NCBI GenBank assembly: GCA_005778355.1
Contig: SXON01000021.1
Location: 1-64,000, forward strand
Length of the DNA stretch: 64,000 nucleotides
Direction of reading: 5' to 3'
DNA from: Pseudomonadota bacterium
GTDB lineage: Bacteria > Myxococcota_A > UBA796 > SXON01
Part shown: positions 48,039 to 52,483 of the stretch, piece after piece
Numbering within the stretch: position 1 is the stretch's first letter
How the letters are laid out: the number at the start of each line of letters is the position of its first letter
Translations under genes and position numbers: made by a program
Notes under the pieces: generated by a model
The model's database searches: none
Seen by the model: only the letters and a program-made list of their open reading frames with translations
What the model was told of the DNA's origin: nothing

Positions 48039-48968
48039 ATGTTCTACCTACTTGCTTGCATCCAGGAAGGACCCGAAAAAGACAGCGCCGACACCGGCGA
48101 AAGTGACACCGACACTGACGCGGACTCAGACACCGACGCCGATTCTGACACCGACACCGACACCGGTTCCTCGTTGTCCTTCGACGACTTCGTGTACCTC
48201 GAGGCGCCCTATGACGCCGACGACAGCTGCCTCGACACCAGCTGGGACTCCCCGATGGCGGTGTGCATGACCGACCACTCGGTGGAGGGACGGGTCATCG
48301 ATTTCCAGACCAGCGATCCCGTGGCCCAGGCTGACGTCTCGGCCTGGACGAGCGACGACATCAGCCTCGGGGCCGACGCCGAGACGAGGAGCGACGACGC
48401 GGGCGCGTGGGCGATGACCCTGCCGGCGTGCACGCCGCTGTCGGTGGCGAGCGAGGCGGCCGACGCGGTCCCCACCTACCGCCAGCACGTCGTCTTGGCG
48501 TGGGAGCACCTCGCGCGGGCGAACCTCGACGCGCCTTCGCTGTCCAACACGACGGTCGCGATCATCCCGGCGCTCCTCGGGGTTGAATGGGACGACACCA
48601 CCGCGATGATCTTCGGCCAGGCTTACGACTGCGAGGGCGAGCCCGTGGTCAACGCGCAGGTATTCATCCACGACGGCAGCGGCGCGGTGGTGGGCGAGCC
48701 GCGGGCCTACTACTTCGACGACAGCTCGCTCCCCTCGGCCACCGAACCGGGGACGACCGGCAACGGGGGCTTTCTCTTGCTCGACGTACCCCAGGGCGAC
48801 TTCACACTGGAAGTCTGGGGCTGGGATGGTGGCGAGCACGTGGAGCTCGCCAGCGCGCCCGTGTCGACGCTGCCCGGGAGTGTCACGATCATCAACCAGC
48901 ACGTCGGTCACGACGACGGGCTCGTGTTTCCAGAGACGTGCTTCTGGGAATGTGATGAGATTGACTGA
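48039..48968 (+). CDS. Asp-rich surface lipoprotein
   Basis: A 309-residue protein with signal MFYLLACIQEG (Cys7). Residues ~15-45 are Asp/Thr/Ser repeats (SDTDTDADSDTDADSDTDTDTG) typical of surface anchors that bind calcium. The rest contains two Ig/transthyretin-like segments: EGRVIDFQTSDPVAQADVSAWTSDD, IFGQAYDCEGEPVVNAQVFIHDGSGAVVG. The second resembles carboxypeptidase-regulatory-like domains. It follows sucA by 3 bp and shares the A of its TGA with the methyltransferase ATG (TGATG, 48966-48970). No link to metabolism is apparent; it may be translated with sucA simply by position. Confidence 0.75.
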   Translation: MFYLLACIQEGPEKDSADTGESDTDTDADSDTDADSDTDTDTGSSLSFDDFVYLEAPYDADDSCLDTSWDSPMAVCMTDHSVEGRVIDFQTSDPVAQADVSAWTSDDISLGADAETRSDDAGAWAMTLPACTPLSVASEAADAVPTYRQHVVLAWEHLARANLDAPSLSNTTVAIIPALLGVEWDDTTAMIFGQAYDCEGEPVVNAQVFIHDGSGAVVGEPRAYYFDDSSLPSATEPGTTGNGGFLLLDVPQGDFTLEVWGWDGGEHVELASAPVSTLPGSVTIINQHVGHDDGLVFPETCFWECDEID

Positions 48969-50680
48969 TGGGTGTCACCTTCATCGACCTCTTCGCCGGT
49001 GCCGGCGGCTTCTCCGAGGGCTTCCTCCAGGCCGACGGGGGCGCCCGCTACGACTTCCTCGCCGCGAGTGACATCAACGAGAACTGCGAGCTCACGCACC
49101 TCCTTCGCTACAACCACCAGCTCGGTCTCGACCTGCCCTTCCTCCGCTCGGATGTGAAGGCGCCCGATTTTGTGGACCGGCTCAGCGCCCTGGTGACCCG
49201 CCCCGTCGACGTGGTGTGCGGCGGGCCTCCCTGCCAGAGCTTCAGCCTCGCCGGGCGCCGTCGGAAGAACGACAAGAAAGACGACCTTTTCGCGGGCTAC
49301 CTCCGCGTGATCGAGCGGCTACGGCCGAAGTACTTCGTGATGGAGAACGTGCCCGGGATCCTCACGAAGGACGGCGGCGCCCACAAGGAACGCATCCTCC
49401 GCGAGATCGGGGCGATGGTCGACGACCGCGCCGTGCGGGAGGTGGCAAGCAAGCTCGGCGACGGCGAGGAAGCCTGGATCCGCCTACGTCTCACGCGCGA
49501 CGCCGACGGCTACGCCACCGCGCTGGGGGACGCCTTCCGCGACGCGACGCGGACTAACCTGGACTATCGCACCAGCAAGACGAGTCGCGACGTGGCGACC
49601 GTGCGGCACGGGATTAGGATGCTCGGGCGTGTGAGCGACCTCGCGCGCCTTGTGGACACGATCACGCGGGAGAAGGGCCACGCCGACATCGACAACGACG
49701 CCTTCGTCGACGAGTTCGACCGTTTCATCGATGTGCTCCAGCCCGACGCGATCGTGGAGCGGTGCCTCGAGGCACTGAAGCGTCTACCGGCCGTCGACCT
49801 GGCCATGCCGCTGCGCACGGCGCTCCTCACGCCGGCCGAGTGCCTCGATCGGGTGGCGGTCTTGCGTCCCGACCTGCAGCGCGCCTGCGCCGACGCCCGC
49901 CTCTATCGCTGTGCTGATGCGCTCACGCTGGACGCGAGCGACTACGGCGTCCCGCAGCGACGCAAGCGCGTGGTGTTCATCGGCTGCCGCCGCGACCAGA
50001 AGCTCATCCACGAGGTGCCCCGGCGCGTGGCCGCGGGCGAGCGCGTGACGGTGGAGGAGGCCCTCTGGGACCTCGACTTCCTCCAGTCGGGACAGGCCAG
50101 CAGCGAGTACCGTCCGGTGCGGGAGGCAGCGGTGGCGTCGCGACAGGCCGACGGTCGCGCCGGCGGGGATCGCACCTATGCGGCATGGTCGCGACAGGGC
50201 CGCGTGCCCGGCTGCCGCCCGGCGGCCTACGTGTACGACAGGGAGGACTACGACGCCGGGAAACTGACAGTCGCACCCCTGCACAACCACCAGGCGGCCA
50301 CCCACAACGCCAAGGTCACCGCACGCCTCCAGGCGATCATGGACGCCGGGCGCTTCGAAGCCGACACCGCGGCCGACCTCGCGGCAATGGGCCTCGGCAC
50401 CGGCAAGCGCGACTACACGCCCTTGCAGGCCAACCAGCCCGCGCCCACGATTGTCACGATCCCCGACGACTACGTGCACTACCGCGTCCCCCGCGCCCCC
50501 ACCGTGCGCGAGATGGCTCGCCTGCAGTCCTTCGACGACAGCTTCGTCTTCCAGGGCAAGCGCACCACCGGCGGGAATCGTCGCAAGGACGAGGTGCCCC
50601 AGTACACGCTGGTCGGCAACGCCGTCCCACCGCTCCTGGCACGGGCCATCGGCGAGGAGATCCTGAAGGTCATCGAGTAG
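48968..50680 (+). CDS. Solitary cytosine-5 DNA methyltransferase with ~150-residue insertion
   Basis: A 570-residue enzyme with the m5C motif series: I DLFAGAGGFSEGF (8-20), IV GGPPCQSFSLAGRR with nucleophile Cys89, VI MENVPG (125-130), VIII QRRKRVVFIG (330-339), and X VGNAVPP near the end. Motifs VI and VIII are usually ~40-50 residues apart; here ~200 residues separate them, so a helical insertion of ~150 residues (about 155-310) is present. No restriction endonuclease neighbours it, so it is an orphan. Target site unknown. Three GTCGCGAC sites lie inside this gene, and a DNA glycosylase follows on the same strand 548 bp downstream. Confidence 0.9.
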   Translation: MGVTFIDLFAGAGGFSEGFLQADGGARYDFLAASDINENCELTHLLRYNHQLGLDLPFLRSDVKAPDFVDRLSALVTRPVDVVCGGPPCQSFSLAGRRRKNDKKDDLFAGYLRVIERLRPKYFVMENVPGILTKDGGAHKERILREIGAMVDDRAVREVASKLGDGEEAWIRLRLTRDADGYATALGDAFRDATRTNLDYRTSKTSRDVATVRHGIRMLGRVSDLARLVDTITREKGHADIDNDAFVDEFDRFIDVLQPDAIVERCLEALKRLPAVDLAMPLRTALLTPAECLDRVAVLRPDLQRACADARLYRCADALTLDASDYGVPQRRKRVVFIGCRRDQKLIHEVPRRVAAGERVTVEEALWDLDFLQSGQASSEYRPVREAAVASRQADGRAGGDRTYAAWSRQGRVPGCRPAAYVYDREDYDAGKLTVAPLHNHQAATHNAKVTARLQAIMDAGRFEADTAADLAAMGLGTGKRDYTPLQANQPAPTIVTIPDDYVHYRVPRAPTVREMARLQSFDDSFVFQGKRTTGGNRRKDEVPQYTLVGNAVPPLLARAIGEEILKVIE

Positions 50681-50725
50681 GTGCAGCGACCGCTCAGCTA
50701 GACCCGGCTGCGCGGCGCCGATCAC

Positions 50726-50748
50726 CGGGGTGCGACCGCAGCACCCCG
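50726..50748 (+). terminator. Hairpin after the methyltransferase gene
   Basis: CGGGGTGC (50726-50733) and GCACCCCG (50741-50748) form a perfect 8-bp stem with a 7-base loop, 46 bp after the stop codon of the DNA methyltransferase. There is no T-tract, so it is not a canonical intrinsic terminator, but it may stabilise the 3' end or pause RNA polymerase. Confidence 0.35.
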
Positions 50749-50830
50749 CCGGTAGACCCGACGGAAGGCAAGTCGCAAGATCCGGTGCGGATCGTTCCCT
50801 TTCGGTGCGCCAGCGAAGCCGCCGGCGCGT

Positions 50831-51062
50831 CGTCGTGAGCGGTCACTGCTTGAACGCCCGACGTCGTGAGCGGTCGCTCTTCGAGTGCACAGACAACGGG
50901 CCGGAGGCGCTCGGAGCGCGAGGTGCTGAACGAGAGAAGCTGGATAATCCGGGACCCGCTGCGGCCGGCGGCGGGGGACAACGCCGGCGCGGTGGCTCGA
51001 TTGTGCACGCAAACTGCTACCGCTTACGACGCGAGGCGTTCGCGTGCTCTCCGCTTACGACG
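50831..51062. repeat. Inverted-repeat island with paired 31-bp-spaced 12-mers
   Basis: The gene-free region 50681-51228 contains CGTCGTGAGCGG at 50831 and again at 50862 (31 bp apart), and its near-complement CCGCTTACGACG at 51020 and 51051 (again 31 bp apart). The right arm read in reverse matches the left arm over ~48 bp with substitutions, including a shared GAACGCC between the two 12-mers. The whole is a 232-bp imperfect inverted repeat with arms of about 48 bp. It could be a MITE-like element or a cluster of protein-binding sites. The centre (50879-51019) has no gene I can support. Confidence 0.6.
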
Positions 51063-51193
51063 GAGGGCCAGGCACCACGAAATCCTGCTGCCTCGCGATC
51101 AGCCGGTCCACCATCGGGATCCGGGCCTCGGGGGGGGAGCGGGTAGTGGCGCTGCGGGTCGCAGGGCCCGGTGGTGTTGAAGAAACGTTCCAT
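51063..51193 (-). pseudogene. 5' relic of an AAA ATPase gene (MERFFNT-family)
   Basis: On the minus strand from ATG 51193 the sequence reads MERFFNTTGPCDPQRHYPLPP. After one frame change at a run of C residues (near 51133-51140) it continues EARIPMVDRLIARQQDFVVPGPPS. Intact family members begin MERFFNTAGPCDPxxHYxLPPxxRLPxVxxLIxxxQYFVLHAPRQTGKTT. The relic stops just before the P-loop, exactly where the right arm of the inverted-repeat island begins. This suggests truncation by insertion or deletion plus a frameshift. Upstream is the DNA glycosylase in divergent orientation. Confidence 0.65.
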
Positions 51194-51228
51194 CCGCCCC
51201 GACGATAACCCCGGGCTAGGTCGCTCCG

Positions 51229-51939
51229 GTGCCCGCCCGCACCCGCACCCGCACCCACGAACACATCGCTCGCGCCGTGGTGAGCGAGCGCTCGGCCGCG
51301 ATCGAGGCGGTGCCGCGCCTCCTGGAAGACTGGTACCGGCAGAACGCGCGCGACTTCCGCTGGCGACGAGGGGAGCTGTCGCCCTGGCAGTTGCTCGTGG
51401 CCGAGGTCTGCCTTCAACAGACCATGAGCCCGCGGGTCGACGCCTTTCTCCCCGGCTTCCTGTCGCGTTTCCCCGACGCAGCGGCACTCGCCGCCGCGCC
51501 GCGCGCCGAGGTTGAATCGGCCCTACGCCCACTTGGGTTCCAACGTAAGCGCGCCGCGGTGCTCCAAGGTCTGGCGGAGGCGCTCGCCGGTCGCGACATA
51601 CCGCGCACACGGGACGCTCTCCTCGCCCTCCCCGGCGTGGGCCAGTACGTCGCCAGCGCGTACTTGTGCGCGGTGCACGGCGAGCCCACCTTCCTGCTCG
51701 ACGTGAACTTCGCCCGCATCGTGGAGCGCGTCTTCGCGCCGCGCCTGCGCCCAGACCTTCGCGACGACCCGGTGCTCGAAACCGTGGGACGGGCCCTCGC
51801 CGGGGCCGCCCACGATCCCCGGCGCTTCAACTGGGCGATGCTGGATCTCGGCGCGCTCGTGTGTCGCCCCACGGCGCCCCGCTGCGACCGCTGCCCGCTG
51901 GTGGTTCACTGCGCGTACGCAGCCGCAGTGGAAGAATGA
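51229..51939 (+). CDS. HhH-GPD DNA glycosylase with [4Fe-4S] cluster (MutY/Mig-like, no C-terminal domain)
   Basis: A 236-residue base-excision glycosylase starting at a GTG. It has the helix-hairpin-helix LPGVGQYVASAYL (Tyr140 where endonuclease III has the lyase Lys), catalytic Asp158 in FLLDVNFARI, Glu59 in AEVCLQQT, and the cluster Cys212-x6-Cys219-x2-Cys222-x5-Cys228. MutY proteins (~350 residues) carry an extra 8-oxoG-reading domain that is absent here. The short form next to an m5C methyltransferase recalls Mig of Methanothermobacter, a T:G mismatch glycosylase that repairs deaminated 5-methylcytosine. MutY-type activity is the alternative. Confidence 0.8.
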   Translation: MPARTRTRTHEHIARAVVSERSAAIEAVPRLLEDWYRQNARDFRWRRGELSPWQLLVAEVCLQQTMSPRVDAFLPGFLSRFPDAAALAAAPRAEVESALRPLGFQRKRAAVLQGLAEALAGRDIPRTRDALLALPGVGQYVASAYLCAVHGEPTFLLDVNFARIVERVFAPRLRPDLRDDPVLETVGRALAGAAHDPRRFNWAMLDLGALVCRPTAPRCDRCPLVVHCAYAAAVEE

Positions 51940-51946
51940 GCGACCG

Positions 51947-52483
51947 ATGAACATCGTCATCCCGAACGGCGCTTACCGTCGCATGCCGTGGAAAAACGGC
52001 GGCGGCACCACCGAGCTGGTGGCGACCTCGGGCGACGACCCACCCGGCTGGCGTGTCAGTCGCGCGAGCGTAGCCAGTGACGGCCCCTTCTCCGACTTCG
52101 CTGGCTACGATCGCTTCATCGTGCTCCTCGAAGGCGAGGGCTGCCTGCTCACCGTGCGCGGCAAGCTAGTGATGCTCGACGACTGGCTCGTCCCCTTCCG
52201 CTTCAAGGGCGAAGATCCTGTCGACTGCGTGCTGGTAGACGGGCCCTGTGTCGACTTCAACTGGATGGTGCGTCGCGAGCATTTCGAGGGGAACGTGGCG
52301 GTGCTCCGGCCAGGAGAGAGCGCTGAGGCGGTGGCGATCTACGCGGTCGGCGATGCCCTCTTGCACGCGGGGGAGAGCGCCGAGGTGCCCGCCGGTCACA
52401 CGCTGGTGTGTCGACGCCAGCACGTTCGGCTGGATTTCGGCGGGCCCGTCATCGCCTGTGACGCGAGGCCACTACTCCCATAG
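51947..52483 (+). CDS. hutD: HutD/Ves-family protein
   Basis: A 178-residue cupin-like protein: MPWKNGGGTTELVATSGDDPPGWRVSRASVASDGPFSDFAGYDRF is the signature of the HutD/Ves family. In Pseudomonas HutD is encoded with histidine utilisation genes and may regulate urocanate level; here no hut genes adjoin it, so its role is uncertain. It lies 7 bp after the glycosylase gene. Its 3' end overlaps the convergent copper monooxygenase-like gene by 12 bp (52472-52483). Confidence 0.85.
   Translation: MNIVIPNGAYRRMPWKNGGGTTELVATSGDDPPGWRVSRASVASDGPFSDFAGYDRFIVLLEGEGCLLTVRGKLVMLDDWLVPFRFKGEDPVDCVLVDGPCVDFNWMVRREHFEGNVAVLRPGESAEAVAIYAVGDALLHAGESAEVPAGHTLVCRRQHVRLDFGGPVIACDARPLLP

Follow-up and report, generated by a model that had tools for sequence, protein, structure and literature searches.

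A cytosine methyltransferase gene beside a Mig-like glycosylase gene in a Myxococcota_A genome: a probable remnant of a restriction-modification module

Genes at the locus

The window analysed here, 64,000 nucleotides of contig SXON01000021.1 (positions 1 to 64,000), carries on its forward strand a gene for a 5-methylcytosine (m5C) DNA methyltransferase and, downstream of it, a gene for a short HhH-GPD glycosylase, both where a preliminary description of this DNA had placed them (Table 1). That description took the two for a possible methylate-and-repair pair whose repair bias could explain the excess of a palindromic octamer, GTCGCGAC, if the methyltransferase targeted that word or its core. 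As set out below, the genomic context speaks for a Mig-like glycosylase acting with an m5C methyltransferase, while the supposed role in the octamer did not hold.

The methyltransferase matches PF00145 with 171.8 bits against a cut-off of 22 (3.3e-50 with Pfam). Its motif I reads FIDLFAGAGGFSEG, the catalytic PCQ lies at residues 88-90 and ENV at 126-128, and these motif residues are invariant across alignments of four and of nine family members. Among 63 genomes of the order, full-length relatives were found in G041 (81% identity), G042 (71%) and G029 (53%), the last being a genome from the same family as the source genome of the window, G000 (6.60 Mb in 252 contigs, 85% complete). Judged by its sequence, the protein belongs to a type II restriction-modification (R-M) family of m5C enzymes linked to MvaI/BcnI nucleases. 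In G042, a gene for such a nuclease (7.5e-38) lies directly upstream of the methyltransferase, on the side that is taken in the window by a lipoprotein-like gene, and G029 has a homologous nuclease gene on the other strand, downstream of the methyltransferase. A search of 12 genomes with PF15515 found the nuclease only in these two, and neither in G041 nor in G000 (85% complete). The label "orphan" in the preliminary description thus suits the methyltransferase of this 85%-complete assembly as regards the MvaI/BcnI family; with no PF15515 match, and other nuclease families not searched, G000 lacks the cognate nuclease that would make up a complete type II R-M system.

The open reading frame (ORF) of the glycosylase encodes 236 amino acids (aa) and scores 52.3 bits for HhH-GPD, where the cut-off is 26.2; HhH-GPD and HHH (PF00730 and PF00633) are its only Pfam domains. 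Because its relatives in G041 and G042 have their first residue at the equivalent of GTG 51280, the window protein probably starts there as well and has 219 aa. It ends shortly after the four cysteines of the iron-sulfur (FeS) loop, in agreement with the earlier remark that it lacks the C-terminal 8-oxoG domain, and the genome's own MutY extends 150 residues beyond the matched part. Three HhH-GPD matches were found in G000: contig 15 carries a full-length MutY, contig 151 an Nth, and the window glycosylase is a third paralogue separate from the cell's own MutY and Nth. Its AlphaFold2 model has a pLDDT of 91 and a pTM of 0.84.

Table 1. Features at and around the methyltransferase and glycosylase genes of the window
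Feature	Positions	Strand	Basis and remarks
Lipoprotein-like gene with Asp/Thr repeats	48039..48968	+	PF13620; flanking context, not part of the pair
m5C DNA methyltransferase, solitary, 570 aa	48968..50680	+	PF00145, motifs, full-length relatives
Intergenic stretch, 562 bases	50681..51242		blastn of the window against G041 and G042
Mig-like short HhH-GPD [4Fe-4S] glycosylase, ~219 aa from GTG 51280 (ORF opens 51229)	51280..51939	+	PF00730 and PF00633, starts of relatives, tree, residue table, AlphaFold2 model
HutD-like gene	51947..52483	+	PF05962, 1.6e-37; flanking context, not part of the pair

Linkage and kinship of the glycosylase

All 63 genomes of the order match the glycosylase in some way, and the close form occurs only in G000, G041 (85%) and G042 (85%), where it adjoins the full-length methyltransferase in every case and the HutD-like gene likewise. 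The methyltransferase is matched in some way by 40 of the 63; 36 of these hold partial m5C-methylase matches and the other four the full-length form. A close glycosylase without the methyltransferase, the pattern that would speak against a pair, was thus not encountered in this survey. Likewise, 377 genomes sampled evenly across the phylum yielded the close glycosylase only in the same three species (E about 1e-104), and 66 other genomes of the phylum match it at 1e-40 or better (best 1.2e-44). Four of these 66, all from one other family (G083, G091, G134 and G186), have short glycosylase frames of 231-249 aa that may be Mig-like.

The linkage recurs outside the phylum. Of 435 relatives of the methyltransferase we examined the best 80, which are mostly Bacteroidota by title and whose fetched flanks often ended at contig ends. 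A homologue of the nuclease was present in the fetched flank of 63 of them and an HhH-GPD gene in that of 7, where a density of 3 such genes per 4 Mb would predict 0.53. In the three of these seven loci that were read gene by gene, all from Bacteroidota, the glycosylase adjoins the methyltransferase (M) or the nuclease (R), the orders being M, R, glycosylase in L210 (Mucilaginibacter) and L204 and glycosylase, M, R in L234. A search of 72,556 plasmid records with the glycosylase gave 88 matches, of which 30 were listed and 11 inspected; the choice favoured short proteins, being mostly of matches that were unannotated, were labelled as hypothetical or as a small repair protein, or overlapped a methylase. 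Nine of the 11 had usable annotation, and in eight of these a DNA cytosine methyltransferase lies at most 1.4 kb from the glycosylase. It is adjacent in six (Caldicellulosiruptor, four Thermus plasmids and Halomicrobium), lies 0.5 kb away in a Halobaculum plasmid and, in an Alisedimentitalea plasmid, is separated from the glycosylase by an annotated MvaI/BcnI nuclease. The eight cases are not independent because the Thermus plasmids have a common replicon type. Hence, short glycosylases stand near m5C methyltransferases also in Bacteroidota, Thermus, Caldicellulosiruptor, haloarchaea and an alphaproteobacterium, in some cases with the same nuclease family. A search of phage records with the glycosylase gave 27 matching records.

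As the preliminary description had proposed, the phylogeny of the glycosylase was compared with that of MutY. In a tree of 53 proteins (those of the window, G041, Bacteroidota and plasmids, Mig, 28 full MutYs of the order, Bst MutY and 8 Nths), the window and G041 proteins group with the Bacteroidota, plasmid and Mig proteins at a support of 93/77; the 28 MutYs and Bst MutY stand apart at 100/98 and the Nths at 100/100. Without Nth, short and full forms are split at 100/100, and the window protein joins the MvaI/BcnI-linked ones at 92/82 on a branch that was not starred. Nesting of the window protein inside MutY is rejected by the approximately unbiased (AU) test (p 0.003). Residues were compared at the Mig sites F27, E42, R47, A50, Y126, D144 and L187, taken from PMC2714593. 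Here the window protein has Phe, Glu, Gln, Ser, Tyr, DVN (for D144-x-N) and Trp, and the three MutYs of the comparison have Leu, Glu, Gln, Val/Ile, Tyr, DGN and Gln/Glu. The Phe, the DVN and the Trp thus stand where the MutYs have Leu, DGN and Gln/Glu, and the replacement of the DGN of MutY that had been pointed out earlier is confirmed. Tyr126 does not separate Mig-like proteins from MutY here, because these MutYs also have Tyr. At the thymine-pocket sites (A50, L187, Y126 and D144), the Tyr and Asp are present, as they are in the three MutYs, and the Ser and Trp match neither Mig nor MutY; correspondingly, the MutY pocket V45/Q182 is not matched, with Ser and Trp in its place. Among PDB sequences Mig (1kea) came top at 6.7e-28, slightly ahead of MutY at 4.7e-27, and a fold search with the AlphaFold2 model gave about equal matches to the two, which are not separable in this way. 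Tree and active-site residues together place the glycosylase outside MutY and most likely with Mig.

We consider the pair to be the remnant of a mobile type II R-M module made up of an m5C methyltransferase, an MvaI/BcnI nuclease and a small glycosylase, the last with a predicted function in T:G repair, and we put the probability of this reading at about 0.72. A "methylate and repair" function is well supported by context because of the co-occurrence of the genes, their recurrence elsewhere and the placement of the glycosylase outside MutY. The methyltransferase would put m5C into its target, deamination of m5C to T would yield a T:G mismatch that is not seen by uracil glycosylase, and the window glycosylase would excise the mismatched T, such that C is restored. 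The nuclease, kept in G042, would have been lost from G000 and G041 (loss rather than late gain elsewhere), and modification would go on there without restriction.

Several observations weigh against this reading. At 73 of the 80 methyltransferase loci the fetched flank shows no glycosylase, and a Gloeothece plasmid carries a short glycosylase without a methyltransferase nearby. In G000 itself, 599 bases lie between the methyltransferase stop and GTG 51280, compared with 47 in G041 and G042; given these ~550 extra bases, the genes are not tightly coupled there. The 14 other short proteins outside the genus (7 from Bacteroidota, 6 from plasmids, and Mig) all have Ala and Arg/Lys at Mig A50 and R47, the sites of the Ser and Gln of the window protein. 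A grouping with Mig alone fits less well than the unconstrained tree (p 0.084), and we found no word enriched with C and depleted with T that would betray the target of the methyltransferase, C-to-T being no more prominent than C-to-G or C-to-A. Furthermore, the AU test does not reject a position as sister of all MutYs (p 0.264), NCBIfam ranks mutY first (129 bits, below the cut-off of 286.5), and fold comparison puts MutY cores (E 9e-13, TM 0.84) above Mig (E 9e-12, TM 0.83). Together with the Gln at the R47 site, which is as in MutY, these last points would suit a truncated MutY-like adenine glycosylase that lies beside the methyltransferase by chance. We regard this as unlikely: the genome already has a full MutY, nesting in MutY is rejected, the window protein departs from MutY at each of the Val/Ile, DGN and Gln/Glu sites, and the close form occurs only with the methyltransferase in a linkage that recurs in other phyla. 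Conceivably, the glycosylase might instead be a base-excision restriction enzyme that replaces the missing nuclease and attacks the unmethylated target. Restriction glycosylases exist, as PMC10273834 on the R.PabI family attests, and G000 has no MvaI/BcnI nuclease match. However, G042 and the three Bacteroidota loci hold kin of the glycosylase together with that nuclease, and a second restriction enzyme would be redundant there; moreover, the Pfam domains of the window glycosylase are those of an HhH-GPD protein only. We consider such a function very improbable. We therefore favor the remnant of an R-M module with its own T:G repair.

The extra bases in G000 are found between the alignable blocks, which are separated by 562 bases in G000 versus 13 in G041 and in G042. 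The stretch contains one 12-nt perfect and one 30-nt imperfect inverted repeat and matches 27 bases elsewhere in the sampled genome, with partial matches of 63-72 bases in G041 and G042. No strong repeat partner was found within the 434 kb sampled from G000, nor was there an Rfam match; possibly, it is a small mobile element. The alleles of the other two species show a pattern of their own. G041 and G042 are ~92% identical overall in aligned DNA and their methyltransferases 75%; from the methyltransferase end through the glycosylase, G041 (L104, C219) and G042 (L120, C138) are 99.9% identical over 2375 bases. This may reflect either recent recombination, with allele swapping at an R-M locus, or a mixed assembly.

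The octamer GTCGCGAC and its relation to the pair

The octamer excess noted in the preliminary description is real. The window holds 46 copies of GTCGCGAC (among them those at 49584, 50137, 50188 and 51590) against 7.5 expected from dinucleotide shuffles, and G000 as a whole holds 3410 in 6.6 Mb versus 194 of the reversed word. Coding excess was assessed with a codon-aware null that keeps the proteins and the codon choice given the preceding base, with 156-434 kb sampled per genome. It amounts to 7.1-fold in G000 (186/26.2), 6.2 in G041, 9.3 in G042, 3.6 in G046, 3.8 in G048, 3.4 in G040, 1.6 in G043, 1.2 in G034 and 1.1 in G029; a rerun with a pseudocount and another seed gave, in the same order, 6.4, 6.6, 7.5, 3.5, 4.1, 2.6, 1.8, 1.2 and 1.0. 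Intergenic DNA contains 0.69 copies per kb in G000, 0.56 in G041, 0.69 in G042, 0.43 in G046 and 0.30 in G048, with none in 28 kb of G040. Across 11 species of the genus the density ranges from about 0.5 to 0.02 per kb. The reversed word proved a poor control, since raw ratios in G034-G036 looked high (895/141, 1009/136 and 929/122) and yet that of G034 falls to 1.2 under the codon-aware null. Copies are spaced as expected at random (coefficient of variation, 1.00). Other enriched words, such as GTCGCAGTC, look to us like codons for repeats of the Asp-Cys-Asp type.

The octamer is also conserved. In aligned DNA, GTCGCGAC is identical in both genomes at 27/33 places for G041/G042, 22/32 for G000/G041 and 21/30 for G000/G042, the respective values being 440/950, 162/867 and 160/874 for other NNCGCGNN places and 18/38, 8/40 and 6/39 for NTCGCGAN. 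All eight positions are protected, with difference rates of 0.012-0.052 versus 0.059-0.160 for NTCGCGAN, and within the core C-to-T changes occur at 0.17 times, and other changes at 0.13 times, the NNCGCGNN rate. G046 and G048 keep the octamer at 5/10 places versus 122/624 for NNCGCGNN sites (p 0.03; p 0.10 against NTCGCGAN).

It is tempting to ascribe this to the pair, as the preliminary description did: the methyltransferase would methylate GTCGCGAC or its core, and T:G repair would convert near-matches. Indeed, the three pair genomes rank first to third by octamer count among the 11 of the genus, and among the nine sampled they show the largest codon-aware excess. However, G000, G041 and G042 form one clade apart from the other eight species in a three-gene tree whose root is not firm, and because the three carriers form one clade the match between pair and density counts as a single event. 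In G046, G048 and G040, where no pair was found, the excess is 2.6- to 4.1-fold over the two runs, the first two tend to conserve the octamer as well, and G029 shows no excess despite its 53%-identical methyltransferase. Nor do the spectra of neighbours and substitutions fit. C-to-T neighbours of the octamer are not depleted in the pair genomes but stand at 1.6 to 2.2 times expectation, compared with 1.4 to 1.8 in four controls of the genus; the depletion typical of Vsr was not found, observed/expected counts pooled over the three genomes being 35/16 for GTTGCGAC, 72/41 for GTCGTGAC and 81/52 for ATCGCGAC. A T:G enzyme would be expected to protect against C-to-T alone, and here every one of the eight positions changes less often, with C-to-T reduced no further than the remaining substitutions. 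The neighbours, the substitutions and the distribution of the octamer among genomes all speak against T:G repair bias as the main cause of the excess, and we deem it very improbable that the pair writes the octamer.

Other candidates for its ownership fared no better. A small m5C methyltransferase (G000:C190, G046:C10, G040:C132 and eight more) occurs in 11/11 genomes of the genus, whether they hold many octamers or few, and does not track density; it is the only m5C methyltransferase found in G039, G040, G046, G047 and G048 and possibly a core orphan methylase. A PF01555 methylase was not found in the octamer-rich G042, other adenine-methylase families not having been searched. As a target of the window methyltransferase, CCCGGG was suggested by a low-order model and fades under the codon-aware null (0.89 against 0.72). 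The strongest word contrast in G000, G041 and G042 is GTCGAC up and GTGGAC down, a C-to-G contrast that looks like codon choice before GAC, and the codon-aware null keeps the preceding base but not the next codon. Compared with the other sampled genomes, this clade favours GTCGAC and avoids GTGGAC, CGGAC and CGTACG, perhaps through a context-dependent codon preference.

In all, GTCGCGAC looks like a HIP-type element, a conserved and over-represented palindrome, maintained by something other than the pair. Protection against all changes fits better with selection on a binding site or with GmeC-dependent mismatch repair than with a T:G glycosylase. The pair might still matter indirectly if the octamer were a HIP-type element outside cyanobacteria that is kept by m5C-dependent mismatch repair as postulated by Elhai, with the linked methylase marking the word and the glycosylase removing the mutational cost, letting density reach its peak in the genus; we think this improbable. 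A literature search for GTCGCGAC, by title and start of abstract, returned nothing about a genomic element.

Comparison with known systems

Mig is linked to an m5C methyltransferase and known mainly from methanogen plasmids. Like Mig (Mig.MthI of Methanothermobacter, PDB 1kea), the window glycosylase is a short HhH-GPD [4Fe-4S] protein without the C-terminal domain of MutY, and it has the equivalents of Phe27, Glu42, Tyr126 and Asp144. Unlike Mig, to which it is 24% identical in the fold alignment, it has Ser and Trp in place of A50 and L187, and its T:G activity is predicted. The methylate-and-repair pair is very probably real and differs from the known Mig system in having a different methyltransferase and nuclease family, reduced here, where the nuclease is absent, to methylase plus glycosylase. 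With MutY, the A/G-specific adenine glycosylase, it shares the fold and the catalytic core; in contrast to MutY, it lacks the NUDIX-like C-terminal domain, the DGN and the pocket of Val/Ile and Gln/Glu, and the genome has a separate MutY.

In E. coli, Vsr accompanies Dcm and repairs deaminated m5C of the cognate methylase, being a nicking endonuclease of another fold. The window glycosylase would work alike with its different fold; a search for the sequence signature of Vsr-type repair came up empty. Short Mig-like glycosylases stand close to m5C methyltransferases in Bacteroidota, Deinococcota, Bacillota, Pseudomonadota, Myxococcota and haloarchaea, several with one nuclease family, and this recurrence suggests that, besides Vsr, such R-M systems can bring along a safeguard of their own against mutation. 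In the portions of the literature retrieved for MvaI/BcnI with a glycosylase no such module appeared, and a search for a mismatch glycosylase with a cytosine methyltransferase returned none. In a 2023 survey of archaeal R-M systems, Vsr is given a class, and a term search of the text did not find the word glycosylase.

For the octamer, the closest parallel is HIP1 (GCGATCGC) of cyanobacteria, described in PMC4390886 as a dispersed, over-represented palindromic octamer in genomes where orphan m5C methyltransferases are present. In that paper, Elhai proposes that GmeC-dependent mismatch repair keeps HIP1 words and reports HIP1-rich genomes without a CGATCG methylase. Like HIP1, GTCGCGAC is a dispersed palindromic octamer, over-represented in coding and intergenic DNA of genomes with orphan m5C methyltransferases. 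Unlike HIP1, it belongs to another phylum and is a different word, its excess runs from about 4- to 9-fold according to the null, its copies are spaced as at random, and its link to the methyltransferase is not supported. The density range within this genus, from about 0.5 to 0.02 per kb, provides a natural series for comparing rival ideas on the upkeep of HIP elements.

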